Assembly: GCA_034440575.1 (NCBI GenBank)
Contig: JAOTOL010001637.1
Location: 898,501-962,500 of the forward strand
Direction: 5' to 3'
DNA length: 64,000 bases
Source: Imbricaverruca yamaguchii
Lineage: Eukaryota; Arthropoda; Thecostraca; Neoverrucidae
The position numbers and the translations under genes are program-made. This document shows, one piece after another, positions 13,447 to 52,233 of the stretch. Under the pieces are notes generated by a model, which did no database searches, had not been told where the DNA came from, and saw nothing but the letters and a program-made list of their open reading frames with translations. Positions within the stretch are counted from its first letter, which is position 1, and each line of letters starts with the position of its first letter.

Positions 13447-13655
13447 TTCAAGGTCATGGCACGAGGTCTAAATATTATCCGATCTGGCTGAAATTCCATA
13501 TTTAGAGTTTCCTCGTTGGTTGTTGGTTATTTCAGTTTTAGGGCGCATCGACTAGGTGTGGTCATTTAGCGCCCATTAGAGTTTCCTCATCCATACAAAC
13601 TACCATGCAAATGAGCAGTTCGAAATTTGAAAGTTGAAAAATAAGTGCCACCCCA
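13447..13655 (-). repeat. hAT-1 right terminal inverted repeat, interrupted
   Basis: About 135 bp of repeat sequence split by a 61 bp LINE-end insertion and its 13 bp duplicated target (13515-13588). It ends in GCCACCCCA, one base different from the left end, and is followed at once by the TSD copy 13656-13663. Confidence 0.9.
13515..13575 (-). mobile_element. 61 bp LINE 3'-end insertion (hairpin type) in the hAT-1 right TIR
   Basis: The 61 bp insert is bounded by identical 13-mers TTAGAGTTTCCTC (13502-13514 and 13576-13588). On the minus strand it reads TGGGCGCTAAATGACC, a short loop, GATGCGCCC, then an AATAACCAAC-type tail. It is absent from the left TIR, which gives the empty-site sequence. 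This is direct proof of a discrete insertion with target duplication. Confidence 0.93.
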
Positions 13656-13663
13656 GAGCACAT

Positions 13664-13784
13664 GTTACACTTCTTTGCCCATCCTATCTTTGCTCATCAC
13701 AAAAAAACGTGCAAAAGATTCAATTTTCAATCACGTAAACAAACAAGGTAACATCTTATTGTTTAAACCAGTGGCGTTTGCCAA
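13664..13784. other. Short spacer, no feature seen
   Basis: Unique-looking sequence between the hAT-1 target duplication and the 29 bp minisatellite. Confidence 0.5.
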
Positions 13785-14190
13785 GCATGCCGTCAAGTTG
13801 TCAGGTTTGCTAGGCATGTCGCCAGATTGTCAGGTTTGCCAGGCATGCCGCCAGTTTGTCAGGTTTGCCAGGCATGCCGCCAGATTGTCAGGTTTGCCAG
13901 GCATGCCGCCAGTTTGTCAGGTTTGCCAGGCATGCCGCCAGATTGTCAGGTTTGCCAGGCATGCCGTCAAGTTGTCAGGTTTGCCAGACATGTCGCCAGA
14001 TTGTCAGGGTTGCCAGGCATGCCGCCAGATTGTCAGGTTTGCCAGGCATGCCGTCAAGTTGTCAGGTTTTCCAGGCATGCCGCCAGATTGTCAGGTTTGC
14101 CAGACATGTCGCCAGATTGTCAGGGTTGCCAGGCATGCCGCCAGATTGTCTGGTGTGCCAGGAACGCTGGGAGATTGCCTGGCTTCGTGT
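13785..14190. repeat. 29 bp minisatellite (about 14 copies)
   Basis: Head-to-tail units built on GTCAGGTTTGCCAGGCATG plus ten more bases, with GTCAAGT/CCAGATT variants; the variants themselves recur in blocks (13.98 kb and 14.10 kb). As 29 is not a multiple of three, all three frames are open and read the same Cys/Arg-rich peptide in turn. The 189-residue ORF is therefore most likely not a gene. A donor-like GGGAAG|GTGAGT follows at about 14200. Confidence 0.95.
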
Positions 14191-14214
14191 CCGCCTGGGA
14201 AGGTGAGTGACTGA

Positions 14215-15086
14215 CGGAGGTCCGGAAGAGCACAGACACCAGAAATCCGCAAATACGCAGGCTTGTCCTCACTGAAATATCGATTCTGCGGGTGTCATCC
14301 CGGGTGGGGGAGGGGAGTTCGCGACTGGAAATTCGCCAATCGGACGTGGGCGATAAGCCCGGTTTACTTTTATACAGTTCCATTCATTCCTAAAAATGCT
14401 TGAGTAACCGCTGCAGCTGCAAATAAACATGTTTTCACTGCAATACATGCAAGGAATTAAGGAAAACCTTGGTGCACCGAGTTTCAACATTTGATGCCGT
14501 TAGTGCACATACCTCCGTTGTACAAAAAAATATCAAATTTCACACCCCGAAGAAGAAACAAATGATGAACTGGGCGATAGAACTAGCTCAATTATGTTAC
14601 GTTAATAGAGTCATATATCGCATCGGAAACCAGATCAGAACATAGTTTACCATCAGGGCCACATTGGTAGCATCATGTGCAGAAGGCAATATGTCCTAAA
14701 AAAATATCCAGTCATTTCCATTTTAATCAACTGGCAGTAATACATTGAGACTCGTTCATTTCCGCAAGGCTTAAGGCCGTTATTGGTCCCCATAATGCAA
14801 AGGCACCGCTGGAATATGCAAATAATCTAAGTCCTATTGAGTTGAAGCAATAACAAAGCAAAAACGAAAGGAACAATGGATCAGCCATCCATGGATTAGC
14901 CTTGCAATAGACATTATCACGCTGCAGAAATCATAACAAAAACATCCATCGCCTTCAATGATTCAGAGCTTACAACACCTATTTGTCACATAATGAATTG
15001 AGCATTCATCAACTGAGCGACAGATGAGTATTCCTCGTGGCCCGTGTTCGCCGTAGTGAAAACGCTCCCATGCCAAACTAGGCGCG
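14215..15086. other. No recognised feature
   Basis: Mostly AT-rich sequence without domain-bearing ORFs, arrays or transposon ends. Confidence 0.5.
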
Positions 15087-15155
15087 CCAGTGCGTGTTGC
15101 CAGTGCGTATTGCCAGTGCGTGTTGGCGGTGCGTGTTGGCGGTGCGTGTTGCCAG
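15087..15155. repeat. Small 13 bp minisatellite cluster
   Basis: About five units of GTGCGTGTTGCCA/GTGCGTGTTGGCG, the same unit as the large array at 15.94 kb, 800 bp away and in the same orientation. Confidence 0.9.
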
Positions 15156-15939
15156 TAGTCGGTTTTACAGCGGCAATTTGCTCCCATATCTACTATCCTT
15201 TGAGCCTTCCAGATCATTCCTTCTTTCAGCTAAATATTCCAGACATGAACTAAACAAATACATCGAAAAGCTTATAATATTCTTAAGAATTGGTTTCAAT
15301 CAATCTTCACAGATTTTTCACTGGAAAAGTGTTTTTCATGGTGAGAATTAAACGATTTTAGACGGATCTCTTTACTATAATTTTCCATAAACCATTTTAT
15401 ATTCCGAGACCTATATCCCAATAGATGGCAAGTAAGCAGTCGGTCGGTGCGTATGCGTTCTACCCATGGGGTGTGTTGTTAATATTTAATAGTTGTGCGG
15501 TGTGAGGATGTCGGGAGTATCAGGTATGGATCGATAAACTTGGTAGACATCGATTAAGTATACTTGTGTTGTTATTTTATCTGCCGTAGCTCAGGAAGTT
15601 GGCTTACAACCGCATCCTTCGCTAATTTAACCATTGCACCAATTTGCTCTCTGGCATTCAATCGTCGGCTGCCATATACAATAGAGCTGAGTGTAGTTTC
15701 CACGTAAATCAGAAAGCGGATTGCAATTTACTGATGTTCGTAAGTTTAATTTTAGTTATTTCAACATCGTCCATAGCAAAACCTATTTCGTTATTAAAAC
15801 TGATGTAATAATTATATTTAGTGGTCGCTTTTAATGTACGCGGATCATTATGCCAGGTCTTCTCCCTCTATCTCGTCCCAGGTCTCTTTCCTGAGGCCTG
15901 GGACCTGCGAGCAAAGTTCCGCTGTAAAACCGAATAGTG
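15156..15939. other. No recognised feature
   Basis: AT-rich spacer between two clusters of the same 13 bp repeat; no gene or repeat seen. Confidence 0.5.
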
Positions 15940-16405
15940 CGTGTTGGCGGTGCGTGTTGCCAGTGCGTGTTGGCGGTGCGTGTTGCCAGTGCGTGTTGCC
16001 AGTGCATGTTGGCGGTGCATGTTGGCGGTGCGTGTTGCCGGTGCGTGTTGGCGGTGCGTGTTGCCGGTGCGTGTTGGCGGTGCGTGTTGCCGGTGCGTGT
16101 TGGCGGTGCGTGTTGCCGGTGCGTGTTGCCAGTGCGTGTTGGCGGTGCGTGTTGCCAGTGCGTGTTGCCGGTGCGTGTTGCCGGTGCGTGTTGCCGTTGC
16201 GTGTTGCCGGTGCGTGCTGGCGGTGTGTGTTGCCGGTGCGTGTTGCCAGTGCATGTTGGCGGTGCGTGTTGGCGGTGCGTGTTGCCAGTGCGTGTTGCCG
16301 GTGCGTGTTGCCGGTGCGTGTTGGCTGTGCGTGTTGCCAGTGCGTGTTGGCGGTGCGTGTTGCCAGTACGTGTTGGCGTTGCGTGTTGCCAGTGCGTGTT
16401 GTCAG
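15940..16405. repeat. 13 bp minisatellite (about 36 copies)
   Basis: Two unit types, GTGCGTGTTGGCG and GTGCGTGTTGCC(A/G), are interspersed. The period is not a multiple of three, so every frame is open on both strands (about 200-residue Cys/Val/Ala or Thr/Gln/His ORFs). These are repeat artefacts. Confidence 0.96.
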
Positions 16406-16494
16406 TGCACCGACTGGACACAGTCGCAGCTCGGCCGTCGCTCGGAAGTAGCCGCGGTTCGCGGCTGCGGCGTTACCACGAGCGCGTCATGGGA

Positions 16495-16905
16495 GGCCGT
16501 ACTGCGGCTAATATCAGACACAGTACTGCTGGCAATATCAGGCAGTGCTGAAATCAACATCAGATACAGTACTGCGACCAACATCAGATAGTGATGTGAT
16601 CAACATCGGATACAGTGCTGCGGTCAATATCAGATATATTAAGTTGTGGTCAATATCAGATACAGTATTGCCGCCAATATTAGACAGTGCTTAATATTTC
16701 CGGTCGCAGAACATTGAAGAAAAACATTGAAGAAAAACGTAATTAAAGTGGGATGATCGTTCCGCTGGTTCGGGTCTGGTATCGTCTGGTCTGGTATCAT
16801 CTGGTCTGGTCTCTAGTCTAATCCCTTGTCTGATCTCTGGTCTCGTCTCTGGTCTCATCTCTGTTCTCGGCTCTGTTCTCGTCTCGGGTCGGATCGGGTT
16901 GGGTC
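16495..16905. repeat. Degenerate ~25 bp repeats and a TCTGGT-rich run
   Basis: 16.5-16.69 kb holds seven or eight imperfect units around AATATCAGA(C/T)ACAGTACTG. 16.77-16.9 kb holds imperfect GGTCTGGTAT/CTCGTCTCTGGT pyrimidine-rich repeats. Both are too diverged for an exact period by eye. Confidence 0.75.
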
Positions 16906-17264
16906 AACGAGGAACCAGTTGAAGTATCATCCGACGGCAAACTTTGCGCATAAAGGAATATTTCGAAGTATGTTGCAATGCAAGGGGAAAGGGTTATTCA
17001 AATATAATTCGCTATTACGCATAATCGTTGTTCCAGCTAATAAACATGGCCGCTTCCATGGTCACATTTGTGCTCCAGCCAACAAACATGACAATGGAGT
17101 AGCACTTCACGCTGACAATGACGGCCTACGTTATCAGCGGCAGAGCAGAGAACTCCGTTCCGATCGCTTTGTCAGCGTCATGGGTGGGGAATGTCCACAC
17201 AACCAGAGTCCTGCCAGCACAAAACTGGACTCAACACCCCACGGCTGTGGCTCGGCTCATCGGT

Positions 17265-17425
17265 CGGCAGTGTCGGAGGCGGCACTACATGGGGAAGTTT
17301 CGGGGTCGATGCCGTCAGAGGAAATACTGTGGGGTGGGAGGCGGTGTCTGGGGCAGTGCTGTCGGAGGTGGTACTGCATGAGACAGTTGAGGGAAGTGCT
17401 GTCGAAGGTACCGCTGTGTTAAAAT
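17265..17425. repeat. Diverged relatives of the 40 bp repeat
   Basis: Contains GCAGTGCTGTCGGAGG and TGAGACAGT words shared with the array at 17.93 kb, but with variable spacing. Probably an older, decayed part of the same family. Confidence 0.65.
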
Positions 17426-17924
17426 AATGATTCTTCGTTAGGCGTGAGATGTCGAAACGAGTACAGCGTGATGCCGTATTTTTACATTGAAATATTGCCA
17501 TTGATATCACTTTTATCCATCAAGCTCAGTTTTGAGCCTATAGTATACTTATGACTACACCATTTTCGCTTTGCTTCAGATATACCTAATTTATGGATGC
17601 ATATATCAACGAAAGCGATAAAATGCCAGTACTATAAACCGACATTGTATAACTGAACACGCGGTGGGTAATCCTGTTGCCTGGACTTGCATCGCAGGAT
17701 TTCGGTGAATCACGGTCCGTTAAGGTGAGCACAGCTCATGATAGCTGTTGTTGAGCATGGCTCGTGAGCGCACCATGATTCTTATAAACGGGATACTGTT
17801 AGAAACAGAGCGCGAATACAGAAAAACAAGCATCAAGAAGCACGACGTCGATAATTATTTGGGATGTCGATTTGGTGTTCAGGAAGTGGTATATTACATC
17901 CTATTTCACCAATAATATATAACT

Positions 17925-18172
17925 GCGGTGCCGCATCACGCGAGACAGTCGGGGGAGATGCTGTCGGAGGCTGTACCACATGAGACAGTCGGGGGAGGTG
18001 CTGTCGGAGGCTGTACCACATGAGACAGTCGGGGGCGGTGCTGTCGGAGGCTGTAACACATGAGACAATCGGCGGCGGTGCTGGTGGGGACGGCACCACA
18101 TGAGACAGTCGGGGGGCAGTGCTGTCGGAGGCTGTACCACACGAGATAGTCGGGGGCGGTGCTGTCGAAGTC
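17925..18172. repeat. 40 bp minisatellite (about 6 copies)
   Basis: Units start GAGACAGTCGGGGG(A/C)GGTGC and run 40 bp each, with few differences between copies. ORFs through it on the minus strand (up to 149 residues) are repeat readings only. Confidence 0.92.
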
Positions 18173-20482
18173 GTCCACTCCCCGTCCCCGAGAGCACAAG
18201 CGTTGAGCGCCTCGGTTCTCAAATGCCGGGGTGGTGGCTCTCGGTGAGTCTTTCTTCCACAGGCAGAAGCGAGCCGCTATGCCAGCTGCATTACAGCCAG
18301 CCAGACCATGCCGCCGAATAGACTTCCACAAGAATGAGCAGGGCCCTCGGGAACCGTATAAGCATATGAGATGTCGGGAAAACAAATTGAAGTGAACTGA
18401 CTGGAGGTGCCGTGGAAGCTAGCAGTGGCATCAAGACGCCACCGAGCCACCGGTAATCCCGCTCCACTCAGACTCTCAGATAACGCTGCAAACACTAACA
18501 GCACACGTCAAGCTCACCGTATTATAATTATACACCATCCTTCACATATATGGGGCCAAACTGTACGAGGAGCACAAGGAAACCTGGAATCCACAAGCAT
18601 TAGATTTTGATGAAATGTACACAGTCTAGCTTAGCTTACGTGGTCCGCTGGTTGTCGTTTTGCGACCCTTTCGAAAAAGTGCGATTGATGCTCCGTTTCT
18701 GAACTGATTCCGGATATGACCATACAAGTACAGCATCTGGCAAAATTTGACCGCACTGGCCGTAAAAATCATTTCCCGGTCACATTTTCCGAGCTTGTTA
18801 GTTCAGCGGGAAATGGTCCACTAATGGTAGCGTGACAAAGTAGCACACGTGAATTGTGCATGGAACTCCTATTTTGGATTTGAAAAATTCTTGTGATTTG
18901 TTTAATTTTAAAAAAGATTACTTAAAATTTTAAGTACGAAAAGTGATTTAAAAAAAAATCTCCTTTCCCTCATGGCGCCGAACAGTGATATGAAGATGGC
19001 GTAGATCGGACAGGAATCGAGCGAATTTTGGAGACGCAGTCCACGGGATTTTCCAGATTTCCCGAATTTTTCATTTGCAACAATTTCCTCATACAACCGA
19101 AGTTACACAGATGAGCTGAGCTGAGAAAAGTAACTTATATCGATCTAGCTGTGTAACCTTTTGAGATATAAGCTAAATAGTTTTGGCATGATGCTTCAGA
19201 AAATGATACATGACAATAATTATTTATAATACATTGCCCACATGATGGGATTATCGACATTGTGTCGATTTGCGTTTGAGAATGATAATTATCTATGCAA
19301 CTTGTGATGGACATTGCGACGCGACGCGATACATTGCTTTCTTAGCTTAGCCTAGACTTAGCACTAAAAGATCAGTTATAAATTGCTAATTTGAGAAATA
19401 AGGAAATAATGGAAATTCTGATGAGTACATATCGTAGCAAATGTCCAAGTGCATATATGTGGCGAATTTGGGTTTGCCAAGTTGAATACTTTGTGCTATA
19501 AGAACAATATTCTTACGACTAGTGTTAACATGGAAAATAGCCTATCTGGGGGGAAATATCTGTCAATGACCAACCTGATATGCTCCAAAAGATGAGGTCG
19601 ACTGGAAGATATCGCATTTTCACAATATCACATCATGAGAGCGAAAATTTCACCCTCGAAGCACTATTAGATCACCAAACGCGACACACCGCATGGCTAA
19701 AGTTTGAGGTTTGAAGCAGAAGGCAGTTGCGAATTGCTGCGCATTGCCGACAATCGTGTGGCTAATTGCGATGTGCCGACAGTCGAGAGATTAATGGAGT
19801 TTTAATTATGAATAAAATGGTGATAAAGTGTTGCAGATGATTTGTAAATTAGCGCTGAATTATTATCTGCTCGGTGGTATGCGAAACGTGTGCGAAAATG
19901 TCCGAGAAAGTGGCGAAAAAGCAACAAAAGATGGCGTTCGAAGTCGGCTTTCGATAGCTGTCAGCTGATGCAGCTGATTAGCCGTTGCAGACGGCCAATA
20001 GGGTTGCAGAAGATGCGACATGGTCGATAATCATGTCGATACGGTCGACAATCGAGCGATGGATGGCACCGCAAAAATGAAGCCTCACGGCGATAGGGAT
20101 AATTTGCAAAGAATAATTATATGGAAATTTTGTGAAAATTGTTCATTGATGCGAGAGGATGCCCAGGTTGGATGCGCTATTTTGGCAATTTAGTATGAGG
20201 ATTATAAATGCGCACATCATTTGCCATGGAGCAATTTGTTTGTAAATTATCGCGGAGAGAGTGTAACGAAAAGACGAGATAATCGAAAAAAGTGCGCGGT
20301 TGCAGCATGGGCTTACAGTCCCATCTCCCCCCCCCACACTCCGGGCGGATATTGCCTGGGCTGCCGGTTTGCTCGGCAAAACAACTTCCCGCCCTGCTGT
20401 TCCCACGGGGCGAGTCTGGAACTCGCCTGAATTCAGTTAAAAAGGACATTGGTGACTGTTTTGTGGACGCCGCAACTGTTTT
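18173..20482. other. No recognised feature (AT-rich)
   Basis: 2.3 kb of mainly AT-rich sequence with only short ORFs. No splice-flanked coding exon, RNA gene or transposon end was recognised. Confidence 0.5.
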
Positions 20483-20528
20483 CGTTTTGGTGGTGTGTGT
20501 GTGGCTCCACACACACACCACCAAAACG
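20483..20528. repeat. Perfect 22 bp inverted repeat with 2-base loop
   Basis: 20483-20504 and 20507-20528 are exact reverse complements (arms start CGTTTTGGTGG). They enclose only CT. The hairpin stem is built of GT/CA dinucleotides and sits at the edge of the GT-rich array that follows. Confidence 0.95.
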
Positions 20529-20690
20529 TGTTGTGTTGGTGTTGGTGGGGTGTGTGGGGTATGATGGTGGGGTGTGTGGGGTATGGCGGGGTATGATGGT
20601 GGGGTGTGTGGGGTATGATGGCGGGGTGTGTGGGGTATGATGGTGTTGGTAGGGTGTGGTGCTGGTGGTGTTGGTGTGCAATTCGTGTGT
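20529..20690. repeat. GGTGTGTGGGGTATGATG minisatellite
   Basis: Imperfect GT-rich units of roughly 20-30 bp built on GGGGTGTGTGGGGTATGATGG, about six copies. Opposite-strand Thr/His/Pro ORFs are artefacts. Confidence 0.85.
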
Positions 20691-21499
20691 GCAAGCCTGG
20701 TGTTGTATATAAACAGTACTCGATTCTTCACACATCATCATTAACGATGCACCTTCCTAACGCAATAGACTGACCAAAATATCGTTCGAGGCACGACCTT
20801 ATCTAATGATGCGAAATCCCTATGATATATGGGTCTGTGGATGTGGATCTATGAATCGTGGACTCTGGATAATATGGAGGACTTGTTTGGTGAGAAAATC
20901 AAGATGTATTATACCCTACCACCACTGATGATGTTGCGAATCGTGATTGCCAAAGAGATGAAGGAACAGAGCATTGATACGAAACATGATTGTTGGTTGC
21001 TTATTGGCTTCACGACACATCGACCGTTGAGCCATGTAGCATCGCCGATCTCTCAGGCCAACTGGCCGCGGGCGAAGATTGGCGACAGGTGAGACTCTAG
21101 CCCACAAACTTTCGATTGTGAAACGGGAAACTTACCCCTAGACATGTTTCCGTAGTGACTTGCATTGAGCAAGTGGCTGATGATGCGATATAAATCTGGA
21201 AAAGAACATCAATCCAGACGAAAACGAAATACAAGGAACGTGATATGATGATAAAACTTTGGATGCTTAACGATTCGAGAGTCTCACTACGCATAATATC
21301 GCCACTCATGTTGCCGAACGCATGACGAAACTGCTCGATATCTCAAGCCGCGCAGCACCACCACAAGTCCCAGGAGATAACTGGCTTCTTGAATACCAGA
21401 GCACGAGGCGACAGACATTCATCGGGAGTGGATCGAGCCACGGCGACGCAGTGGAGGCGGCGTGGGCAGCGGGCGAGTTCGTCTTGACGACCTAGTCGA
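20691..21499. other. No recognised feature
   Basis: Spacer with short ORFs only; no domain or repeat seen. Confidence 0.5.
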
Positions 21500-22518
21500 G
21501 GCCTTATCCCGCTCCAGTACCTGCACCACCACAGCCGACACGGCCAGCTCCAGTACCTGCACCACCACAGCTGACACGGCCAGCTCCAGTACCTGCACCA
21601 CCACAGCTACACGGCCAGCTCCAGTACCAGCACCACCACAGCTGACACGGCCAGCTACAGCACCAGCATCACCACAGCCGACACGGCCAGCTCCAGTACC
21701 AGCACCACCACAGCTACACGGCCAGCTCCAGTACCAGCACCACCACAGCTGACACGGCCAGCTCCAGTACCAGCATCACCACAGCTACACGGCCAGCTCC
21801 AGTACCAGCACCACCACAGCTACACGGCCAGCTCCAGTACCTGCACCACCACAGCTGACACGGCCAGTACCAGCACCACCACAGCTGACACGGCCAGTAC
21901 CAGCACCACCACAGCTACACGGCCAGCTCCAGTACCAGCACCACCACAGCTGACACGGCCAGCTCCAGTACCAGCACCACCACAGCTGACACGGCCAGCT
22001 ACAGCACCAGCATTACCACAGCTACACGGCCAGCTCCAGTACCAGCACCACCACAGCTACACGGCCAGCTCCAGTACCAGCACCACCACAGCTACACGGC
22101 CAGCTCCAGTACCAGCACCACCACAGCTACACGGCCAGCTCCAGTACCAGCACCACCACAGCTACACGGCCAGCTCCAGTACCAGCACCACCACAGCTGA
22201 CACGGCCAGCTCCAGTACCAGCACCACCACAGCTGACACGGCCAGCTACAGCACCAGCATCACCACAGCCGACACGGCCAGCTACAGTACCAGCATCACC
22301 ACAGCTGACACGGCCAGCTACAGCACCAGCATCACCACAGCCGACACGGCCAGCTACAGTACCACCACAGCCGACACGGCCAGCTACAGTACCAGCACCA
22401 CCACAGCTGACACGGCCAGCTCCAGTACCAGCATCACCACAGCTGACACGGCCAGCTACAGCACCAGCATCACCACAGCCGACACGGCCAGCTACAGTAC
22501 CAGCACCACCACAGCTGA
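21500..22518. repeat. 35/36 bp minisatellite (about 29 copies)
   Basis: Units contain ACACGGCCAGCTCCAGTACC and CAGCACCACCACAG. 36 bp (CTGACACGG) and 35 bp (CTACACGG) versions alternate irregularly, so reading frames slip between units; shortened units occur near 21.87 and 22.36 kb. Ser/Thr- and Gly/Val-rich ORFs on either strand follow the repeat and end where 35 bp units break the frame. Confidence 0.96.
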
Positions 22519-23400
22519 AGATGTGTCGGGGTTGGTTATTTGGGCTTCGGAGCACATCGACTGCGTTGGTCATACAGCACCCCGATGAAGATGTGTCGAC
22601 AATGGAATACTTGTTATACATAGCACCAGTTTGGTTTCTACTCGTCCACCTCGTGAGCTAATATGATTGTCAAAACGTGGCCAATTTTCGGAATCAGCAA
22701 CGTTAATTGCACCAGGAACCGATTTGCAATTGAAAATTTTGGAGAAAAAATTGCGAAACGGGTAACCTAATGCTATTATTTCCACCCAATCTATGAACAT
22801 AAATGGCAGTTACAAAGTCGAACATGTCTGGCGCGATACCTTATAGAGGTAAGCTTACTTGGCAAGCCATAAAGACATCATAAATGATGCTCGGGAATCC
22901 CAATGCGCAGCATACCACAAACCCGCATAAAAACTCTGAACAACCGAGAACGAAAGAAAACGCAGAAACCAACACTGCACTCAAATCTGAGACTACGCTG
23001 GGCGCCTTGCCAGATCTGACGCCACCCTCGGAAGCCTCCGTCTCCACCTGGGGAGGCACAGTCAAGCTGCTCACCTACAGCCAGCTAGCTGCTGCATTGC
23101 ATTAAGGTCATACGCGCGGCTCCAGCCTTGGGGGGGGCACACTCTGAGAAGACGCGCCGACGCCATTTTGGCCGTCAAACCCAACAGACCGCAAATCGCC
23201 CGACCAGCCTACCCCAAACTTGCCTACTTCTTCACTACGAACTTCTAGCTCAGCTCTACGACTTCAACTCTACAATACTCTACTTCAGGTTAATATGGCG
23301 GTGTAGCTGCCCCTCCCACCAGCCGCCGATATTTGTAATAAGTGTGCACCTTTCCATTCTAACCCAAACGCCAAAACCCACGACCAACTGCGCTCACCCA
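22519..23400. other. No clear gene; possible upstream part of LINE-C
   Basis: 22.9-23.1 kb is open on the + strand (73 residues from 22884, Thr/Pro-rich), compatible with the N-terminal low-complexity part of a LINE ORF1. I cannot prove it. Confidence 0.35.
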
Positions 23401-23659
23401 ACATGAACAGACACCACGCCAAACACCCCGACGGGTGATTTACTTCCTCTGCTGCCGGGATGATGGAGAGCCCATGGGCTCCCTTGACCCCTGAACGGTG
23501 AAGGAGATCACCAGTTGGGCACGGAAGCCCCTCTCATTCAGACATACAACTCCAACGACGCAGATATACTGACACGCATCACAGACAACTCTGACATCCC
23601 AATCACCATGACACCAGCCGCACACCTCAACACATCACAGGGCACCATATGCGCACGGG

Positions 23660-25101: not shown

Positions 25102-25110
25102 ACAGCATCG

Positions 25111-27942: not shown

Positions 27943-28005
27943 TTCTATAATTTTCAGTTATATAGTGTGCATTTGTTCACACAAACACGGTTTGGTTTTA
28001 GACAT

Positions 28006-28061
28006 GATGGTGATGGTTTGTTGACTAAGGGCGCGCCGACTACTGGGTCATTTTGCATCCA
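28006..28061 (-). mobile_element. 56 bp LINE 3'-end insertion (hairpin type)
   Basis: The minus strand reads TGGATGCAAAATGACC, then TAGTCGGCGCGCCC, then a tail ending CCATCACCATC. Flanked by TTAGACAT at 27998-28005 and 28062-28069 (8 bp, the shortest duplication of the set). The first stem arm is mutated (GGATGC instead of GGGCGC), so this is an older copy. Confidence 0.8.
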
Positions 28062-28069
28062 TTAGACAT

Positions 28070-32995: not shown

Positions 32996-33143
32996 CTGCG
33001 ACTGTGCCCACGGTTGTTCACCGTACACTGGCGTGAACTTGAAGCCCAAGTAAAGGGACTGCGATGTCATACTTGGAATGCAGAGCCGGAAGGGATCGGT
33101 TGGTCACATACAGTTGACAACTTCGTCCATTCCATACGCCAGA

Positions 33144-33196
33144 GTTAGTTATTAGGGCTTAAGGGCGCATCGACTACATTGGTCATGTAGCGCCCA
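33144..33196 (-). mobile_element. ~53 bp LINE 3'-end insertion (hairpin type)
   Basis: Minus strand: TGGGCGCTACATGACC, loop, TAGTCGATGCGCCC, TTAAGCCCTAATAACTAAC. The duplication CCATTCCATACGCCAGA (up to 17 bp, 33127-33143 and 33194-33210) overlaps the element by a few ambiguous bases; at least TTCCATACGCCAGA is unambiguous. Hairpin arms GGGCGC/GCGCCC are perfect. Confidence 0.93.
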
Positions 33197-36145: not shown

Positions 36146-36159
36146 GCAGAACTTGGCTT

Positions 36160-36239
36160 AGCTAGTTATTTGGGTGTTAGGGCGCTTCGACCAGTTTTGA
36201 CCATTCGCGCCCATAACATTGTATTATGCTTCACTGCTG
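36160..36239 (-). mobile_element. 80 bp LINE 3'-end insertion (hairpin type)
   Basis: Flanked by GCAGAACTTGGCTT (36146-36159) and GCAGAACTGGGCTT (36240-36253), 13 of 14 identical. The minus strand carries about 25 bases of 3' UTR similar to the LINE at 51.9 kb, then ATGGGCGC, loop, GAAGCGCCC and a CCCAAATAACTAGC tail. It is longer at its 5' side than the 53-61 bp copies, so truncation points vary. Confidence 0.85.
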
Positions 36240-36253
36240 GCAGAACTGGGCTT

Positions 36254-40125: not shown

Positions 40126-40260
40126 TGGTGTCTGAACTACCTGGGGGAAAATAACGGCATGTTCAATCTCAACACCCTGTACTCACTGCTGTTTAAACTG
40201 GTGTCTGAACTACCTGGGAGAAAATAACGACATATTCGATCTCAACACCCTGTACTCAGA
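40126..40260. repeat. ~75 bp tandem duplication
   Basis: Two copies of a segment starting GTGTCTGAACTACCTGGG and including CTCAACACCCTGTACTCA, with a few substitutions. Confidence 0.85.
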
Positions 40261-40432: not shown

Positions 40433-40494
40433 AGTCGCAGTATAAGCGGCGACTTGCCGCGCCACTCGACCCATTGGGTCATAGAAGAAGCCTG

Positions 40495-40690
40495 TCGTTG
40501 GCGAGAATGCCATGAAAGCATCCCCAGTGTGAGTGGCGCGCACAGAGACGTCGTCCCAACTGATTACTCTGTCAAACGGCACACGGATAAGTGTTGCCTA
40601 AGCACTCCCAGTGCGAGGGGCGCGCACAGAGATGTCAACCGCATCTGATTACCCTGCCGAACGACAGATGGCGAAGCGTTGCCTGAGCAT
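40495..40690. repeat. ~100 bp imperfect direct repeat
   Basis: A GCGCGCACAGAGA(C/T)GTC word and flanking GAGCAT/AGCACT-CCCAGTG segments recur at about 40530 and 40617; a partial third similarity occurs near 40680. Confidence 0.7.
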
Positions 40691-40826
40691 TTCCGGTAGT
40701 TCAGGATGACACATGGACCGAAAAATACTATAAAAGGTGAGATGAAGCGATACACCCTTTGCACATTTTGCGTACAGAATACATCGCTCTGTACGGGTCT
40801 CGCATGTAGCGGCTGAGATGATAAAA

Positions 40827-42353
40827 TCACAGCCGATGCTCATACTCCAGAGACTGGAGGCAGTCTAGGTCCATGTGGTGAACTAGCCGCATGAGGAACT
40901 TACGCTGCACACTCTCAATGCAAACGCATTGACATTTAACGGCAACTGCCAAACTTGCTGAACTGTAGCCTGGGATAGACCGAATGCTTGCGCTACAAGT
41001 AGCAAGAGTTGCCAGCTTATTCAGATTGCGGCAGGGGAGATGGACTAAAGTCAGAATGAGTGAGCCAAGCGACCTACTACCTTCAGACATGGCACTAAAA
41101 ATACAAAAAAGTGAGTTTTTGTTGTATCCAGGATGAATCCCAAATATCGTTCAGTACTGACGTTTTCAAGTCGTTTTCGAGTCGTCGTTGTGTAGTTTAT
41201 TTTAAATGAAAAGGATTGAATATCCAATTTAAATTGACTTTAAAGGATCAATATTTTGGCACATTTATGTTGAGTTTCCAGTCGGCTCTCAGCAGCGTAT
41301 TACTGCATCAATGTACCTCTGTAACACACGGACATTGTGCACGCTTTTAAGCTATTAAAAAAAATGTTGAGATCTTCAGCAAAGACAAAACAATTTGTCT
41401 TGACTACAGATTGCAGGCCGTTCACAAAGAGATCAAACAACAGTAAGGAGATCAATGCACCTTCTGGCGTGCCCGACACAGCAGGTACCTAATCAGACGC
41501 ATCCCCATTAAGCAATACTCCCTGGCTTCGTCTCCTCCGGCATTTCAGCCACCCCAGAGCTTGCCCACCGGCACCATGCATACGCTACAGTGTATGCAGA
41601 AAACGTTGGGTTTCACTTTGAAATGCGCTAGAAAAGTCTACCCAGCTGCGTCCAGCTGAGCACTCTGAGAGATTGATCTTCACCCATGCAATAAAAAATG
41701 ATGCTGGCCTAGTGGCACAAGAACGATGCGGGACGATGCCATGCCGGGATGCGGGCAGGTGATGACTGATATGATGCATGAGTTGATCGCAAACAATCTT
41801 CGCCGCCCCCGAAAAAAATGTCACAAGGTGGCAGCAGTGGAACCGATCGACAATTTTCTAGGAGCTTGCGAGAACCTTTTTTTAAGATAGGGATACAATT
41901 GGTTTTCACCCGCCGTTAGGGATAGGCATCACATATTAATCGCACGGTAAAAAGCGTCCATAGAGTGACAGCTATCTTCTCGACGCACTCACGCAGGATC
42001 CATGCGCTCAATCCATATGGGACGCATGCTTCGCCGACAACATTCATCAACAAATAGCAGACTGATTAATCAGACAATGTAAATGAGTCATGAAATCCGC
42101 ATGACATCCAGGGATGTCCTGGAAATTCGTGACGACTGGGGTCGGAAAATCTTGCCGCAAATGCGCGGAGTACGTTTGCTTGCGGAGTAAGAGTAAGTAA
42201 GTTTGCTCTAAGCACATCGTCCGATACCTGAACACCCTTACATTTTAGCATCGACACCCCCTTCGTCTGCTTGAAGCAATTCAAAAGGGACCAGAAGGGA
42301 TTCGACCTTGCCACAAAATCGCTGACAAGACCACAAGATGTTCCTAATAACAA
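40827..42353 (-). mobile_element. LINE-D: degraded Jockey-like LINE (RT region only)
   Basis: RT-type segments are in order on the minus strand from about 42.35 kb down to 40.83 kb. No ORF1 or endonuclease was recognised and no tail was found, so both ends are truncated or eroded. Confidence 0.8.
40827..42353 (-). pseudogene. LINE-D reverse transcriptase pseudogene
   Basis: From the 5' side: a pre-RT linker (ARSNPFWSLLNCFKQTKGVS, about 42.3 kb), IPILKKGSRKLLENCRSVPL (about 41.9 kb, fingers), CDQLMHHISHHLPASRHGIV (about 41.77 kb), VDFSSAFQSETQRFL (about 41.62 kb), SGTPEGALISLLLFDLFVNG (about 41.45 kb, PQG is PEG), CFVFAEDLNIF (about 41.37 kb) and thumb SVQRKFLMRLVHHMDLD (about 40.9 kb). The catalytic FADD is FAED, so the first Asp of the pair is lost. 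Frames change at least four times. Confidence 0.85.
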
Positions 42354-42489
42354 TCCTCAACACATGCTTCAAATCAGTCAGTATTCGTAGTCAACTTTAA
42401 CACATACGTCATTTGGATGACGCTTCACGTGCTTGAAATTACCCTGTTTGTGTTATCCATATATCTATCAAAACAATGGACAGAAGCTA

Positions 42490-43740
42490 CCTATCTATTG
42501 AGCCCTTCCTTAAAAAGGAATACAGGCGTACTAGAAAGAGTGCAGATAAAATATACTATGCTCATAAGTGGACTAGGCAATTTACAATATGGCGATAGGC
42601 TTATATCATCAGATATGTATTAACTCAAATATCGGAGATGCAGGGATGATGACTGAAATGCTTAACCCGTCCCGTCTCGGGGGGAGGGGTCTTCAACCGC
42701 CCCCCCTCTCCCGCTCAGATTTTTTGCGGATAGCGGATCAACGGCGCGCGGCAGCACGCCCAAATTTGGCAAACCTTTTGCCACATTAATTTGACATGCT
42801 GATTCGAAATGTTTAGGTCAGGTCATCTAGGGTCAACGAGTTAGTCAAGGTAAAGTGAGGTCACCCCAAAAAAGTTCAACCAGTCGTCACGCTTTAACGG
42901 ATACAGATATGTTAATGAAACTTTCAGCGTTTGCTTATCTTTACGGATGCAGCAAAACGCACAAGTGGAATTTTTCTCTTTTTTTAAGTTATTTTTTTTT
43001 ACTACATATAAATTCTGCGTATTTGCCAACTTGCAGTTCAAATACAGGATTCTGGCTAAAGTAAGCATTTTTATTAGGAAAAGCTGACTTCCAACAACGT
43101 TTCTCGGTCTGCTCTACCCATTGGGAAAGGAAAATTAAAGAAAACTTGAAAACTCAAAATTTCAATATTTCAACAAACAAACAAAAATTGCGAGGCCAAA
43201 CAAAATTATAGCCCTGGTCGATTTAGCTGTCCCTTTCTCATTCCAAATACTTTTTTTCATATATCCTCAAAATGAACTCCTCAGAGTCAAAAACATAATG
43301 GTAGTCGTGAAGTCGTGAAAGTCTAGCCCCCCCCCCCCCTCTCTCTCTGGTGACGTCACTTTTGGGGGAAATTGTTTTGGAGGGTGGACCCGGACCCTAC
43401 TCGTAGAACGCTTTCCGATGACAACTCTTTCGTTTTCGTGCGATGCTTAGTTTGAATTTGAGAGGGGGTTCTTCAACCGCCCCCCCCCCCGTGACGGGGT
43501 GCGAGGATTTGACCGGAAAGACGGCGCGGGTTAGGACAATTTCAACCGACATAATGCTCTTCAAGTTATGGAATCGCGCAGGGGTGATCAATTCAGGTTT
43601 GACAAGTCAGTCAGGTTAGACAATATGGCAATGAAACGCCAACAGGCTTTCAGTCAAAAGGTCGTTGATCAACGCAACAGGCTGCCTGCTAATGTGGATA
43701 GTACCTCATTGAACGTATTGAAGAAAAAAACATGGTGGAC
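42490..43740 (+). mobile_element. LINE-E: RT C-terminal relic split by ~950 bp
   Basis: 42.50-42.60 kb encodes LKRNTGVLERVQIKYTMLIS then GLGNLQYGDRL. 43.57-43.74 kb encodes KRQQAFSQKVVDQRNRLP then VDSTSLNVLKKK. These are adjacent thumb/C-terminal segments of CR1-like ORF2 proteins, which elsewhere lie about 50 residues apart. The material between (42.61-43.56 kb) is probably an insertion; it holds two direct GTTCTTCAACCGCCCCCC-type blocks (about 42.68 and 43.47 kb) and a poly-C/CT run, but its ends could not be set. Confidence 0.65.
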
Positions 43741-43844
43741 ACATTCTTGGGCATCAGAAATTGTTTTCGACTTTAAGTTGTGCAGTGAGAGCATGAGAAT
43801 TAGGGGTATGTGGGATGGTCTTGATTATGTGTGTACTGGACAGG

Positions 43845-43899
43845 TGGTGGTGGATTGGAGTTTAGGGGAGCGTCGACATCAAGGGTCATTTTGCGCCCA
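43845..43899 (-). mobile_element. 55 bp LINE 3'-end insertion (hairpin type)
   Basis: Flanked by identical 15-mers TGTGTACTGGACAGG (43830-43844 and 43900-43914). Minus strand: TGGGCGCAAAATGACC, loop, GTCGACGCTCCCC, then AATCCACCACCA. One stem pair is changed (GCTCCC against GGGCGC). Confidence 0.93.
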
Positions 43900-44457
43900 T
43901 GTGTACTGGACAGGCACGGCCATGACGGACACTTGATAGGTGATAGTGTGACACTGTAATTGTGCGATAATACGGTCGATAATTTCCTTTGATGTCGCTG
44001 ACCTTGATGTCAACGAGCAGTTCACGCATAAAGAGAACAACTAAGGGAATCGAGGGAACGCACATGACTGACGACGTTCAATCAAAGAGTAGTAAATCGT
44101 TGCAGTGTGCTACCCGAGGAGGAGGTGCGGACCCATTCACTGGGTGTGTTTTTTATAAAAAGGAATTATGATGTCTTCAGACGTCGGCGGGCAGCAGTCG
44201 GCCTCCGCCCAGGCATGGTAGCCTGCACCCGCCGCCACAAGAATTCAACAGAATGTGACACATCACACGCACGCTCACCCACCGCCAGCTGACGGAAATC
44301 GGCCGCCAATGGCTTCGTTGCGAGCCGCATACATCCACCTGGGCAGAGCAGCCGTGTACGGACGCCGTCTGGCCGACGATCACGGCCGAGGTCGCACTTT
44401 GTGTCGGAGCGGCGCCGTCTCGGCAGCATCTGGCGCAAACTTCCGTCCGACGCTCAC

Positions 44458-44654
44458 CTTTCGAGCCTGCCCAGCTTCTTGATCTCATGCTGCAGCTGGT
44501 GGACGTGCTGGCGCCGGTGCCGGCCCACCAGCTGCGCCAGCTGCTGGCTGTCCTCGCCGCTGACTGAGCGAGCCAACCGCCGCCCACCTGGCGACCGAAA
44601 CACACGCGTCCCGTGAGGCGCCAGCCACGTTCGCTGCAGCCGCACCGGCAAAAT
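44458..44654 (-). CDS. Possible host exon of unknown function
   Basis: A minus-strand frame reads ILPVRLQRTWLAPHG, RSVSGEDSQQLAQLVGRHRR and QLQHEIKKLGRLER, amphipathic and partly helical. It ends in a good donor GAAAG|GTGAGC (exon end 44458). An acceptor-like CTCATGAGGCAG|AT lies at 44654. It has the same strand as the 30-31.7 kb exon and lies 13 kb upstream of it, so the two could belong to one gene; I see no proof. Overlapping frames are also open. Confidence 0.35.
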
Positions 44655-46364
44655 CTGCCTCATGAGGTAGAGGGTCAGCCGAGGGGAGGGCGATGGGAGA
44701 CGGGGGGGGGGGGTCGATGGGTGCTCCGTTGTCATTTCGTTTCTGATTCGGATGACACTGTGAAAGAACATGTGAAGAGTTACTGATGGGTGGCGACACA
44801 TCATTAGTATGTTCCAGTGTGATTAGTTCATTAGTGGAGGACATTGTGTTTAAATTAAGAAATATTTTGGAAAATGGTAGGGAATGAGACAAGTATTTTC
44901 ATCTAATGTCAGATCTTTTGTTTGTTAATCGCATTTTCGAGGGTCCATAAAAGCTTCGTCCTAGAGGTTCCCGTTATGAAAATTCACATGAAATAGATTC
45001 CATTCCAAAATTTACGTAGTCCTGTTTGGCATTACACTGACATACAAAGTATCATAAAATGTTGTGCAGTTAATAGCGATACGCCTTCGAACCTGAGCTG
45101 AATTTTTGTCAAGGTGCGAATACTTGTATTCACATCCGACGGACAAATGAAAATTAATTCGGACATACTGGTGGAACACCATTCAAATGTCCCAGGTAAG
45201 CCGCTGCTTCTACTGGTGCCATGGCTTGTCCAGCGGCACACCGTTGGCATGTTCCAGATAAGCCGCTGATTCTTGTCAGACCGCACATTTTGTTAGAAAA
45301 TTTTCCGTGTTCCAAGTTCGTTCAGGGACATACGCTGCGAGTAGCTTAAAAATAGCTAAAGCTAGCATAAGACGTCATTGCAGGCACTGGACTACGGAGG
45401 ACGAGATACCGTGGAGTATCTCGACGAGGTCCGCTGCTTTAGGCACAGGATCGGGCGACATCCCGCGAGAAGGGATATATGAACAGACTGCAGCTGCTTA
45501 CCTTGGCAGGCCGCAAGAGCATACACGTTATTCGATCCAAGTTTCGAAGTGCAAGAACTTCAGAAATCAATAAGACTTATTTCGGCAAGCCGGCACAGTA
45601 CATACATTTTGATCAGTGTGCTCGATATTCGGTTGGGAAATTGAATAGCGGAACTAGAGCTTTCAATGTCGACATATGCAAATTGAAAATAGTGAATCCA
45701 CTCCAGCTCAAATTGACTACACGTGACCGGAAATCGGCCCCATCTACTCAATGATGCATATACCTTAAACGAAATTTGCTATGCCGGATTGTTCACTTCG
45801 CATAGCTACCATGTTGCACCATGGAATTTGTTATCGCATTTGGCCTTTTCGTTCAATGCATTGTACATACACTGTACACCAGTCACACAGCCAACCGACC
45901 CCGGGGCACGCGGGTCGCGGGACATAACCACGTGACCACGTGAACGGCGGCTGGCTGGTCGGTGCTCAGTCGTTGTCCGCTGGACCGGCACGGCCCAGGT
46001 TCTGCCATAAAAGTACGCCTCTGAACAAAAAATCGCCTACTTCAAAACCAACATTGGGGGTGAAAACCGTTAATAAAAGTATTAAAAAGACATGACTTTT
46101 TATTGCCGTAAGGAAAGGATCATGGCGTATTTATTTTCATTATTCACTTTAATTCTGCTTCACCACGTACAGACAAAAGCCATGTGTGGTAAAACTATAA
46201 ATTTAAATTACTGAAACGGCATGTCATGTTTACTTATGATGATAAAAAAAGGTCTCAGGTATAACTCTGCGTAAACGAATAACTAAATACGATGCAACAG
46301 AAGTCATTAAGATCTCGAAAGCGTGATGGCCGTGCCGGGCCGAGTGGCTCAGTTGGCCTTCCGT
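44655..46364. other. No recognised feature
   Basis: Includes a G11 run at about 44.7 kb; otherwise AT-rich and unassigned. Confidence 0.5.
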
Positions 46365-47597
46365 AGCGTGCACACGGTAGGCCTTCTGTAGCGTGCACAC
46401 GACAGGCCTTCCGTAGCGTGCACACTACAGGCCTGTACCGTGCACACGGCATGCATTCTGTACCGTGCACACGGCAGGCCTTCTGTAGCGTGCACACGGC
46501 AGGCCTTCTGTAGCGTGCACACGGCAGGCCTTCTGTAGCGTGCACACGGCAGGCCTTCTGTAGCGTGCACACGGCAGGCCTTCTGTAGCGTGCACACGGC
46601 AGGCCTTCGTAGCGTGCACACGCAGGCCTGTACCGTGCACACGGCAGGCCTTCTGTACCGTGCACACGGCAGGCCTTCTGTAGCGTGCACACGGCACGCC
46701 TTCTGTAGCGTGCACACGGCAGGCCTATAGAGTGCACACGACACGCCTTCTGTAGCGTGCACACGACAGGCCTTCTGTAGCGTGAACACGGCAGGCCTAT
46801 AGCGTGCACACGGCACGCCTTCTGTAGCGTGCACACGACAGGCCTTCCGTAGCGTGCACAAGGCAGGCCTGCAGCGTGAACACGGCACGCCTGTAGCGTG
46901 CACACGACAGGCCTTCCGTAGCGTGCACACGGCAGGCCTTCTGTAGTGTGCACACGGCACGCCTTCTGTAGCGTGCACACGGCAGGCCTATAGAGTGCAC
47001 ACGACACGCCTTCTGTAGCGTGCACACGACAGGCCTTCCGTAGCGTGCACAAGGCAGGCCTGCAGCGTGAACACGGCACGCCTGTAGCGTGCACACGACA
47101 GGCCTTCCGTAGGGTGCACACGGCAGGCCTTCTGTAGTGTGCACACGGCAGGCCTTCTGTAGCGTGCACACGGCAGGCCTTCTGTAGTGTGCACACGACA
47201 GGGCTATGGTGTGCACACGGCAGGCCTTCTCTAGCGTGCACACGGCACGCCTTCTGTAGCGTGCACACGGCACCCCTTCTGTAGCGTGCACACGACAGGC
47301 CTTCCGTAGCGTGCACAAGGCAGGCCTTCAGCGTGAACACGGCACGCCTGTAGCGTGCACACGACAGGCCTTCCGTAGCGTGCACACGGCAGGCCTTCTG
47401 TAGTGTGCACACGGCAGGTCTACGGTGTGCACACGGCAGGCCTGTAGCGTGCACACGGCACGCCTGTAGCGTGCACACGACAGGCCTTCCGTAGCGTGCA
47501 CACGGCAGGCCTTCTGTAGTGTGCACACGGCAGGCCTACGGTGTGCACACGGCAGGCCTGTAGCGTGCACACGGCAGGCCTTCTGTAGTGTGCACAA
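46365..47597. repeat. 25 bp minisatellite (about 50 copies) with higher-order structure
   Basis: Units are built on CTGTAGCGTGCACACGGCAG and four to five further bases, with 18-20 bp shortened units interspersed. Blocks of about 200 bp containing the same order of variants (for example at about 46.8-46.92 and about 46.98-47.11 kb) show segmental duplication inside the array. Each unit carries a GTGCAC palindrome. The 423-residue minus-strand ORF is only the repeat. Confidence 0.96.

Positions 47598-50176
<2,579 letters not shown>

Positions 50177-50232
<56 letters not shown>
50177..50232. repeat. (TA)n microsatellite, right half of the split tract
   Basis: About 55 bp of TA resuming directly after the hAT-2 right end, preceded by a TATT variant. 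Confidence 0.97.
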
Positions 50233-50238
<6 letters not shown>

Positions 50239-50359
50239 GGATCACGAAAATATCCTCATTTCCTAAAGCAGTGGGGGACATTTGAAATAATTCATATATA
50301 GTACCAAAATACGCCTGAGGTCTGACACACACGGACATGGACAAGGACATGGTTATGGG

Positions 50360-50570
50360 TTATGGACATTAGCGCAGAGACACAGACTCAGGCACAGACA
50401 CAGACACAGAGATACAGACACAGAGACACAGACACACAGAGACACAGATACACAGACACAGATACCAAGGATGCGGAGCCGGGAAAATTTTGGACGGCTC
50501 CGGCTCCGACTTCGGCTCCGGGGAAGTATCCCGGCTCCGGCTCCGGCTCTGGCTCCGTACATCCCAAACG
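50360..50570. repeat. (ACACAG)n run plus (GGCTCC)n run, locus 1
   Basis: 50.37-50.47 kb is an imperfect ACACAGAGACACAGAT repeat. After a ~45 bp joining segment it passes into GGCTCCGGCTCCG repeats (50.49-50.56 kb). The same two repeat types recur in reverse order at 51.1 kb. Confidence 0.85.
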
Positions 50571-51114
50571 TGATCGATCCATTAGGTAAGAGCCAGGGGA
50601 TGCAAAAAAAGTTAGCTGCGACCACTCAGAGGCGCAAACTACAGATAATTATAAGCAACTTCCACATATAAACCATGTATCTGTTTTTAAATAAACACCC
50701 GCCCCCGCTCAAATCACTTTTCGGTGTCATGCCCTCGTAACCTGACGCTCGCTTCGTGCCGTATTGGGGAAATCAGAAGAGGGGAGACTCGAATCAACAA
50801 TACTCCCCATCCCGTGAAGGGTCCAAGGAGTACCATTGTTGTACATTTTAATGTTTGACCTCATTTCTAATAAGGTACAACAACCCGTTGATGATGGAAA
50901 CAATGAACTGAACTAAACTGAACATGGAACTATTGCACTGACTGCTGAGGCTGGAATATGGTTATTGGTTTTTCTACAATTATTTGATGATATTTTTACA
51001 TGTTACTCGTATTTAAGCATTTTGGCTTTTAAAAATGCGTTTTCATACCATACCATACCATACTAAGTATAATGTGTTCATTTCACGTTTGCCAATTTTG
51101 TTTAATTTTCACCT
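50571..51114. other. No recognised feature
   Basis: Spacer between two related simple-repeat loci; a short CATACCATAC run at about 51.05 kb. Confidence 0.5.
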
Positions 51115-51275
51115 CTTTCGAAGTCGGAGCCGCCCTGCTTTTGACGGCTCCGGCTCCGGCTCCGGCTCCTCATCCCTGACAGATACACAGATACACAGAC
51201 ACAGATACACAGAGACACAGCTACACAGAGACACAGATACACAGACACACACACAGACACGCACGCACGCACGCA
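51115..51275. repeat. (GGCTCC)n run plus (ACACAG)n run, locus 2
   Basis: TTTTGACGGCTCCGGCTCC at about 51.14 kb matches TTTTGGACGGCTCCGGCTCC at about 50.49 kb. Here the GGCTCC run comes first and ATACACAGACACAG repeats follow, ending in (GCAC)n. Confidence 0.85.
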
Positions 51276-51845
51276 CATGTTGAAAATCATACAGGATTCA
51301 GACTATTTGCGCAGTCACTAATCCCAAGTCTAGCAAGATAGCATAAATGGAAATCGTGCAGATGACAAAAATCTGCCATATCTGATCGGCCGTCAAGTCA
51401 AGAGGACATTTTCACCGTGTTTATTTGAGGAAGCGGAACACGAATAGCGCTGTGCTGCAACGCAATCGGCCTGGGGTTGACAGTCTGAACACAGACAGCG
51501 GCTCAGAGAGTCACATCTTTCGTGGAAGACATTATGTAAGAGCATCAGGTTATGCCAAATGAAGCAAAAGGATATAGGGAGAACAGAGAAATGAGGGGGC
51601 GTGCTGCTGCAGTTCATATGCGGAATAGGGCGACCATAGGTTGAAGAATGGGCAGCAAGTTACGCAAGACATGTATGCTGAACACCCTCCGAACTAATCA
51701 AATAGTTGTTAGCAGCACCAGCCCAATTGCACTGCAATATTCTACGACAAATCTGACGCTTGCGTTAAAGGTACATTTACATGTACCTTTACATGTACAT
51801 GTATTTCAGCGAGCTTTCGGTTGCGCAGGGTTTTCAGCGTTGGAA
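51276..51845. other. No recognised feature
   Basis: Contains a small palindromic AGGTACATTTACATGTACCT at about 51.77 kb; otherwise unassigned. Confidence 0.5.
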
Positions 51846-51858
51846 GGAAATAATGAGA

Positions 51859-52220
51859 TTGATTGATTGATTATTTGGGCTTAAGGGCGCGCCGACTACA
51901 AGGTCATTTAGCGCCCATAGCAGTTACTTGTTCCAGCCGTCGCTATAGGATGTCCATTGTACTACAAGTATTCTCTTTCCTGGTGCATTTTGATGTTAAC
52001 GACCCGGATAAATAGCACAAAACTTTACATCAGATAGGAAGCTGAAGAGCCTTCCAGATTGCACGACCGGTGATTTGTCACTTAAAACTGTTAGAAGGGA
52101 GTGGGCCTGATCACTCCCAAAATGACGTCTACGCTCCAGCCCAAGCCTCGGGCAGGAAATCAGAACGTGGCTAACTGTCATTACTGCACCACATTTCGGC
52201 CACAATGGTTCATTCTCCCC
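51859..52220 (-). mobile_element. LINE-F: 362 bp 5'-truncated LINE with hairpin 3' end and 13 bp TSD
   Basis: Flanked by identical 13-mers GGAAATAATGAGA (51846-51858 and 52221-52233). On the minus strand it holds the last ~75 codons of ORF2, a ~70 bp 3' UTR, the hairpin ATGGGCGC...GGCGCGCCC, TTAAGCCCAAATAA and an (ATCA)n tail. It is the longest member of the hairpin-ended set and identifies the source as a LINE. Confidence 0.92.
51996..52220 (-). pseudogene. LINE-F ORF2 C-terminal fragment (Cys/His zinc-finger-like)
   Basis: Reads NEPLWPKCGAVMTVSHVLIS then CPRLGLERRRHF and a PVVQSGRLFSFLSDVKFCAIYPGR-like end before a stop. C-x-n-H-x4-C after a VTVxH motif and a following RRR is the usual C-terminal domain of Jockey/R1/I ORF2 proteins. 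The first Cys pair is reduced (PKC for CxxC). The fragment starts exactly at the insertion boundary. Confidence 0.85.
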
Positions 52221-52233
52221 GGAAATAATGAGA

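Follow-up and report, generated by a model that had tools for sequence, protein, structure and literature searches.

Hairpin insertions in the window

The stretch analysed here, called the window, comprises 64 kb (64,000 nucleotides) of the genome of the thecostracan arthropod Imbricaverruca yamaguchii (GenBank assembly GCA_034440575.1, contig JAOTOL010001637.1, positions 898,501 to 962,500) and harbours a set of very short insertions made of one hairpin and a tail, which belong to a group of long interspersed nuclear elements (LINEs). These insertions, termed stubs, are about 58 bp long, carry as a rule target-site duplications (TSDs) of 8-18 bp, begin at a fixed edge, (A/T)GTT(A)/TGGGCGC, and occur in several LINE lineages, with few full LINE continuations. 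The approximate layout of the module is TGGGCGC-TAAATGACC-loop-GTCGxx-GCGCCC, with a tail of short repeats after it.

The window holds seven LINE-type modules (c1 to c7) and one short interspersed nuclear element (SINE) with the same tail hairpin, 8/8 on the minus strand (Table 1). Five of the modules (c1, c2, c3, c5 and c7) are hairpin-plus-tail insertions of 53-61 bp that start at the hairpin foot. An earlier note on this DNA had described six minus-strand modules, each bounded by a direct repeat. All six (c1 to c6) are present and real, but c7 had been missed, together with a weaker covariance-model match in the SINE tail (20994-21045, 23.8 bits). The direct repeats are perfect for c1 (13 bp), c2 (8 bp), c3 (14-17 bp), c5 (15 bp) and c6 (13 bp), as also for c7 (13 bp), whereas that of c4 is imperfect. 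The empty site that had been proposed for c1 is confirmed by alignment within the window: 13444-13514 and 13576-13640 align to 10527-10457 and 10469-10405, with one shared 13-bp target copy. The insert is absent from this inverted repeat of the c1 locus, which has a single target copy, and therefore measures exactly 61 bp. In c6 the LINE frame, 84% identical at its end to an open LINE frame elsewhere, stops at 51996-51998, 78 nt before the hairpin.

When a covariance model is derived from the seven LINE-type modules, it recovers all of them at E values of 1.6e-12 or better (c7: 4.1e-13). A search that does not depend on the model, for the core pattern [AG][CT]CGAC-N6-11-GTCAT on both strands, gives six exact matches in the 64 kb, all of them module copies on one strand. 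An unbiased scan for direct repeats of at least 11 bp at 40-600 bp spacing, tandem arrays masked, gives 18 pairs, of which four belong to modules; 12 of the 14 other pairs were inspected and hold no module (two 73-bp-spaced pairs near 40126 were left out). The window SINE has no clear TSD. Separately, a 54-bp segment with terminal AATATTCC / GGAATATC-like ends lies between 12-bp direct repeats at 52345-52422 and is perhaps another very short insertion.

Table 1. Hairpin modules and related features, in positions of the window
Feature	Position	Strand	Evidence
Relative of the c1 locus, empty site with one target copy at 10457-10469	10405..10527	-	blastn within the window
c1, hairpin-plus-tail insertion, 61 bp	13515..13575	-	TSD TTAGAGTTTCCTC, 13502-13514 / 13576-13588; empty site
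Old tRNA-derived SINE copy, tail with the same hairpin	20992..21131	-	blastn, 85% to SINE copy in L026
c7, hairpin-only, 57 bp, of which 2 are extra bases at the 5' junction	22529..22585	-	TSD TGAAGATGTGTCG, 22516-22528 / 22586-22598
c2, hairpin-only insertion, 56 bp	28006..28061	-	TSD TTAGACAT, 27998-28005 / 28062-28069
c3, hairpin-only, 50-53 bp (target shares 3 bases)	33144..33196	-	TSD of 14-17 bp, ends at 33143 and 33210
c4, divergent, 80 bp, retains GTTA and ~26 nt before the hairpin	36160..36239	-	imperfect TSD (13/14), 36146-36159 / 36240-36253
c5, hairpin-only insertion, 55 bp	43845..43899	-	TSD TGTGTACTGGACAGG, 43830-43844 / 43900-43914
c6, LINE copy, 362 bp: end of open reading frame 2 (ORF2), 78-nt untranslated region, hairpin, (AATC)n tail	51859..52220	-	TSD GGAAATAATGAGA, 51846-51858 / 52221-52233

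Stubs are abundant genome-wide and flanked by target duplications

We then scanned the assembly (767 Mb, 1,430 contigs) with the intact 5' hairpin arm TGGGCGCTAAATGACC, which occurs 2,589 times, compared to 0 for the reversed pattern. In the first 67 of 100 listed loci, 46 have a duplication (score of at least 8) between -3 and +8 nt from the hairpin foot compared to 1.6% of mispaired flanks, and at a score of at least 12 the numbers are 34/67 and 0.02%. One of the 46 (L076) is LINE-linked, so that 45 is the cleaner figure. Truncation inside the hairpin becomes visible when the 3' half is used as anchor. Subfamily A has 520 exact 3'-half copies, of which the first 47 in list order were taken, and subfamily B has 583, of which the first 38 were taken. 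Sample A comprises 26 copies at the foot, 5 running into the LINE, 7 ending inside the arm and 9 without clear assignment; for sample B the corresponding numbers are 32, 3, 3 and 0. Pooled, a TSD adjoins the hairpin foot in 58/85 loci (mispaired controls 1.6% and 4.1%), while 8/85 run on into the LINE ORF2. The target duplications at 46/67 and 58/85 loci and the empty site of c1 are those of target-primed retroposition, and chance direct repeats as their explanation were ruled out by the mispaired-flank controls. An excess of TSDs over control flanks had been set as a check in the earlier note and is borne out, as is the pile-up of 5' ends at the hairpin foot, which holds genome-wide.

A 264-kb region of contig C1404 (the window and L014-L033) was analysed without selection. 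It yields 32 hits at E < 0.001, namely 15 foot stubs, 7 LINE-linked copies, 2 SINEs, 3 GTTA-extended copies without ORF hit and 5 others, at a mispaired rate of 1.2%. Extrapolation from this one region (15 stubs per 264 kb) would give about 93,000 hairpins and about 44,000 stubs in the genome, if the region is typical. The 264 kb also show a strand bias, with 27/32 hairpin copies on the minus strand (P = 1e-4), for which a cause such as replication direction is possible; whole-genome strand counts are near even (1231 and 1358). Some loci form near-identical pairs on other contigs or at other places (L072/L099, L012/L106, L104/L107, L116/L119, L047/L146, L086/L148 and L090/L091), and the assembly may therefore hold haplotype or segmental duplicates.

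The 5' edge coincides with a conserved junction

To define the edge from the duplications we combined the samples, with 7 cross-sample duplicates removed, into 121 unique loci. These give 73 foot calls (score of at least 9) at offsets 0 (22), +1 (17), -3 to -1 (14) and +2 to +9 (20). The extra base at +1 is A, the LINE's own base, in 13/17 cases, and part of the stub junctions carry 2-9 nt of extra non-LINE bases. Among the foot calls the duplication is 9-18 bp long in 70/73 (mode 13), and the insert measures 49-81 bp with a median of 58.

The edge can also be located by sequence, with the duplications left aside. In 81 loci (4 of the 47 A loci, near-identical to others, were removed) the arm is incomplete in 14. 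In the other 67 the LINE match before the hairpin extends over 0-3 nt (57 loci), 7-8 nt (2) or at least 83 nt (8), with nothing between. The minor 5' ends inside the hairpin lie mostly in the outer arm in subfamily A (L100, L104, L113, L128 and L129) and in the inner stem in subfamily B (L134, L152 and L153).

Genome-wide, GTTA in front of the hairpin is kept in 349/2,589 copies (13.5%). In the 23 ORF2-linked copies the motif is found base by base as G in 22, T in 21, T in 23 and A in 22, and the preceding base is always A or T. This count rests on the 23 ORF2-linked of 33 copies; the other 10 had been chosen as extended partly by sight of GTTA. Stub ends thus fall inside or beside a conserved (A/T)GTTA/TGGGCGC junction.

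Several divergent LINE lineages share the hairpin

The LINE was characterized from a copy (C98) with an open frame of 1,249 residues that contains endonuclease, reverse transcriptase and RNase H domains and is preceded by another ORF. Endonuclease and reverse transcriptase lie in one ORF (PF14529, PF03372 and PF00078 in L074), as in non-long-terminal-repeat retrotransposons, and RNase H (PF00075) follows the reverse transcriptase where the frame continues (L010), which by domain content would fit the I group. Compared to the C98 frame, other hairpin-linked ORF2 ends are 72-98% identical in lineage A, 40-48% in lineage B and its kin and about 35-70% in the copies around the window (150 of 6,210 candidates were scored in the protein search). 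Thus, several divergent LINE lineages share the hairpin and the nearly invariant (A/T)GTTA, and most of them also have stubs. The earlier note had named the LINE of c6 as the source. This copy does hold an ORF2 end and the stubs are LINE-derived, but they come from several divergent lineages and not from one source.

A 765-residue piece spanning endonuclease and reverse transcriptase has 241 protein homologues, while none was found for a 79-residue LINE fragment. Scans of viral and bacterial contigs with the hairpin gave 0 matches, or 5 chance matches in coding DNA, and scans of viral and bacterial collections with the LINE protein gave no relatives. Within the window, an ORF2 piece of the same LINE group (70% over 80 residues) lies at the left edge on the minus strand (3-242), and an ORF at 2252-2956, also on the minus strand, resembles by eye the ORF preceding ORF2 in L074.

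All seven LINE-type copies of the window fold into two stems, an outer and an inner one, which are separated by an asymmetric internal loop. Folding of single copies clearly beats shuffles in only 3/7 (z = -4.4, -2.8 and -2.5; the rest -1.2 to +0.6), and covariation among the seven copies alone comprises 0 two-sided changes. In 31 distinct copies from the 264 kb, aligned by fitting to the covariance model, 94% of pair cells are standard and 10 cells are two-sided compared to 2.3 in shuffles. A set of 21 LINE-linked, extended and SINE copies has 11 two-sided cells compared to 3.3 in shuffles, mostly from a single SINE/LINE split, and a covariation score of 0.233, while slid structures reach no more than 0.116. 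Counted by pairs, the two-sided changes do not clearly exceed shuffles (42 and 27 of 500). The hairpin fold is thus supported, in part through one SINE/LINE split. An odd module at L027:1554-1618 retains the tail and the outer 3' arm and has a different, longer inverted repeat in place of the inner hairpin.

SINE copies extend past a hairpin of the same kind

The genome also contains a SINE of about 165 bp, derived from transfer RNA (tRNA), found in the window and in L026, L027, L028 and L014; ARAGORN, run on 4 loci, identifies its head as tRNA-Val in 2 of them. Its tail, with 2,763 exact occurrences in the genome, forms a hairpin of the same kind, which has compensated stem bases and lacks GTTA. 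SINE and LINE thus share a stem-loop, as in stringent-type LINEs. In the first 20 of 100 listed SINE copies (two of which share one duplication and are probably one event) all 20 run past the hairpin; 19 reach to within 2 nt of the head start and 1 is truncated inside the head. Hairpin-only copies therefore amount to 58/85 for the LINE type and 0/20 for the SINE (P = 6e-9, near-duplicate loci kept in). If both elements share one enzyme, the hairpin fold alone does not stop it.

Twelve unique SINE loci have a usable duplication, of which 7 start at the expected start or at most 2 bases off and 5 carry 1-8 extra bases. The extra bases at stub junctions resemble those at these SINE 5' ends, which are true transcript ends. 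A B box with up to 2 mismatches is present in 0/73 stubs compared to 19/20 SINE copies; at 3 mismatches it is found in 40/73 stubs, with shuffles at 30%. Stubs thus lack the internal RNA polymerase III promoter expected of a SINE.

Origin of the stubs

The earlier note had explained the edge by reverse transcription being halted at the hairpin. This is doubtful: the enzyme copies from the tail, so a pause would be expected at the 3' side of the stem, yet stubs hold the whole hairpin, and the SINE hairpin was passed in every copy. Simple hairpin pausing was rejected on these grounds.

We favour, with about as much confidence as doubt, the reading that stubs are LINE-type insertions whose copied RNA already ended at the foot of the 3' hairpin. 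The RNA would be cut or trimmed exactly at this foot, with the conserved (A/T)GUUA as a possible part of the cutting signal, and the template would already end at WGUUA/UGGGCGC. Target-primed reverse transcription, presumably by the LINE's own enzyme, would then copy tail and hairpin only and run off the template. A pre-ended template is favoured by the edge at the foot in 58 of the 85 3'-anchored loci, by the 73 foot calls among 121 unique loci, 39 of them at 0 or +1, and by the gap in LINE identity before the hairpin (none of the 81 loci between 8 and 83 nt). It is further supported by the small number of copies that keep GTTA, by junction bases like those of SINE transcript ends and by the SINE being copied through in 20/20.

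Several observations weigh against this reading. The stubs are known here from genomic DNA alone, and 10/85 copies end inside the hairpin arm (14/81 by sequence alone); as pre-cut RNA alone does not give such ends, early stops on that RNA are needed in addition. Three loci scored at the foot among the 85 (L094, L122 and L129) have arm bases missing or altered in the sequence-only test, intermediate ends occur outside the 81-locus sample (c4, about 26 nt; L020:5931, 21 nt), and L027:1554 is a doubtful stub call within the 264-kb set. No known ribozyme was found, six loci matching no Rfam family. The SINE control, moreover, presumes one enzyme for SINE and LINE, and since the SINE is without GTTA a GTTA-specific stop stays compatible with it.

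Such a stop is part of the main rival, which we regard as a real but rather doubtful possibility: the enzyme would grip (A/U)GUUA and the hairpin, copy the hairpin, and fall off or collide with its own grip at the foot of an intact RNA. This would fit the nearly invariant (A/T)GTTA beside the edge in the 23 ORF2-linked copies, and the ends inside the arm indicate that stops near the foot do occur. The ORF2 region between endonuclease and reverse transcriptase of zebrafish L2 LINEs binds the 3' stem-loop (PMC4176376), and this binding by the ZfL2 protein makes an anchor plausible. Release at the anchor is at odds with the SINE, copied through with the same kind of hairpin, though without GTTA, and with the copies continuing beyond the foot, which in the 81-locus sample all reach at least 83 nt. 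That the stubs are a tiny SINE, a lineage of its own in which a short RNA gene parasitises the LINE, seems improbable: they do exceed LINE-linked copies in the samples (58 and 8 of 85), yet they turn up repeatedly with loop and tail variants that belong to different LINE lineages, and the B box of the SINE copies is missing from them. Least probable, and in our view very unlikely, is a snap-back of the complementary DNA, where the new strand, once both arms are copied, forms a hairpin of its own and thereby withdraws its end from the enzyme, helped by the LINE RNase H. The stop would then fall just after the 5' arm, and ORF2 does have an RNase H domain, but SINE hairpins, which likewise have a complementary stem, are copied through, and the inverted tail copies expected from self-priming were not seen among the stubs inspected by eye (no scan was made).

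Taking the pre-ended template further, we tentatively propose that the RNA of this LINE group is severed at the conserved (A/U)GUUA/hairpin junction. Each LINE might then act as a factory of a mobile RNA of about 58 nt that lacks a promoter. Such an RNA would perhaps be the smallest unit mobilised by a LINE, and its insertions would outnumber those of the LINE several-fold.

Comparison with known systems

The LINE, its stem-loop tail, the partner SINE and truncation are all of known kinds. With the stringent-type LINEs UnaL2 and ZfL2, as described in the available part of PMC4176376, the present system has in common a 3' stem-loop, a tail of short tandem repeats and a SINE partner whose tail is the same; the LINE here differs in its RNase H and does not belong to the L2 type of that account. 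The same part of PMC4176376 contains no mention of hairpin-only insertions as a main product. tRNA-derived SINEs that end in a LINE tail have their counterpart in the SINE of this genome, which has hairpin and tail in common with the LINE, whereas stubs have neither tRNA head nor B box.

Truncation points of LINEs at the 5' side are usually scattered. Stubs resemble 5'-truncated LINE copies in being target-primed, flanked by TSDs and in keeping the LINE 3' end, but in most of the sampled copies the edge is the same, and nothing except hairpin and tail is left. In the literature searched, which was covered in part, we found no report of hairpin-only LINE insertions and no precedent for an edge fixed in this way, for solitary hairpins prevailing in the samples or for their recurrence across lineages. 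If our reading is true, the main product of this LINE group is the recognition hairpin and not the LINE itself. The number of stubs is possibly in the tens of thousands, if the 264-kb region is typical. In our judgement ordinary repeat annotation is likely to miss insertions as short as 50-60 bp, so that similar elements may go unnoticed elsewhere. Taken together, the sharpness of the edge, the conservation of the junction and the SINE as control raise one question, whether the enzyme is released at its anchor or meets an RNA that has already been cut. A related case is the template boundary of telomerase, where the reverse transcriptase is anchored to a structured RNA and copying is confined to a short segment whose 5' limit is fixed. 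In the stubs, by contrast, the copied segment includes the hairpin, and what results is an insertion flanked by a target duplication.

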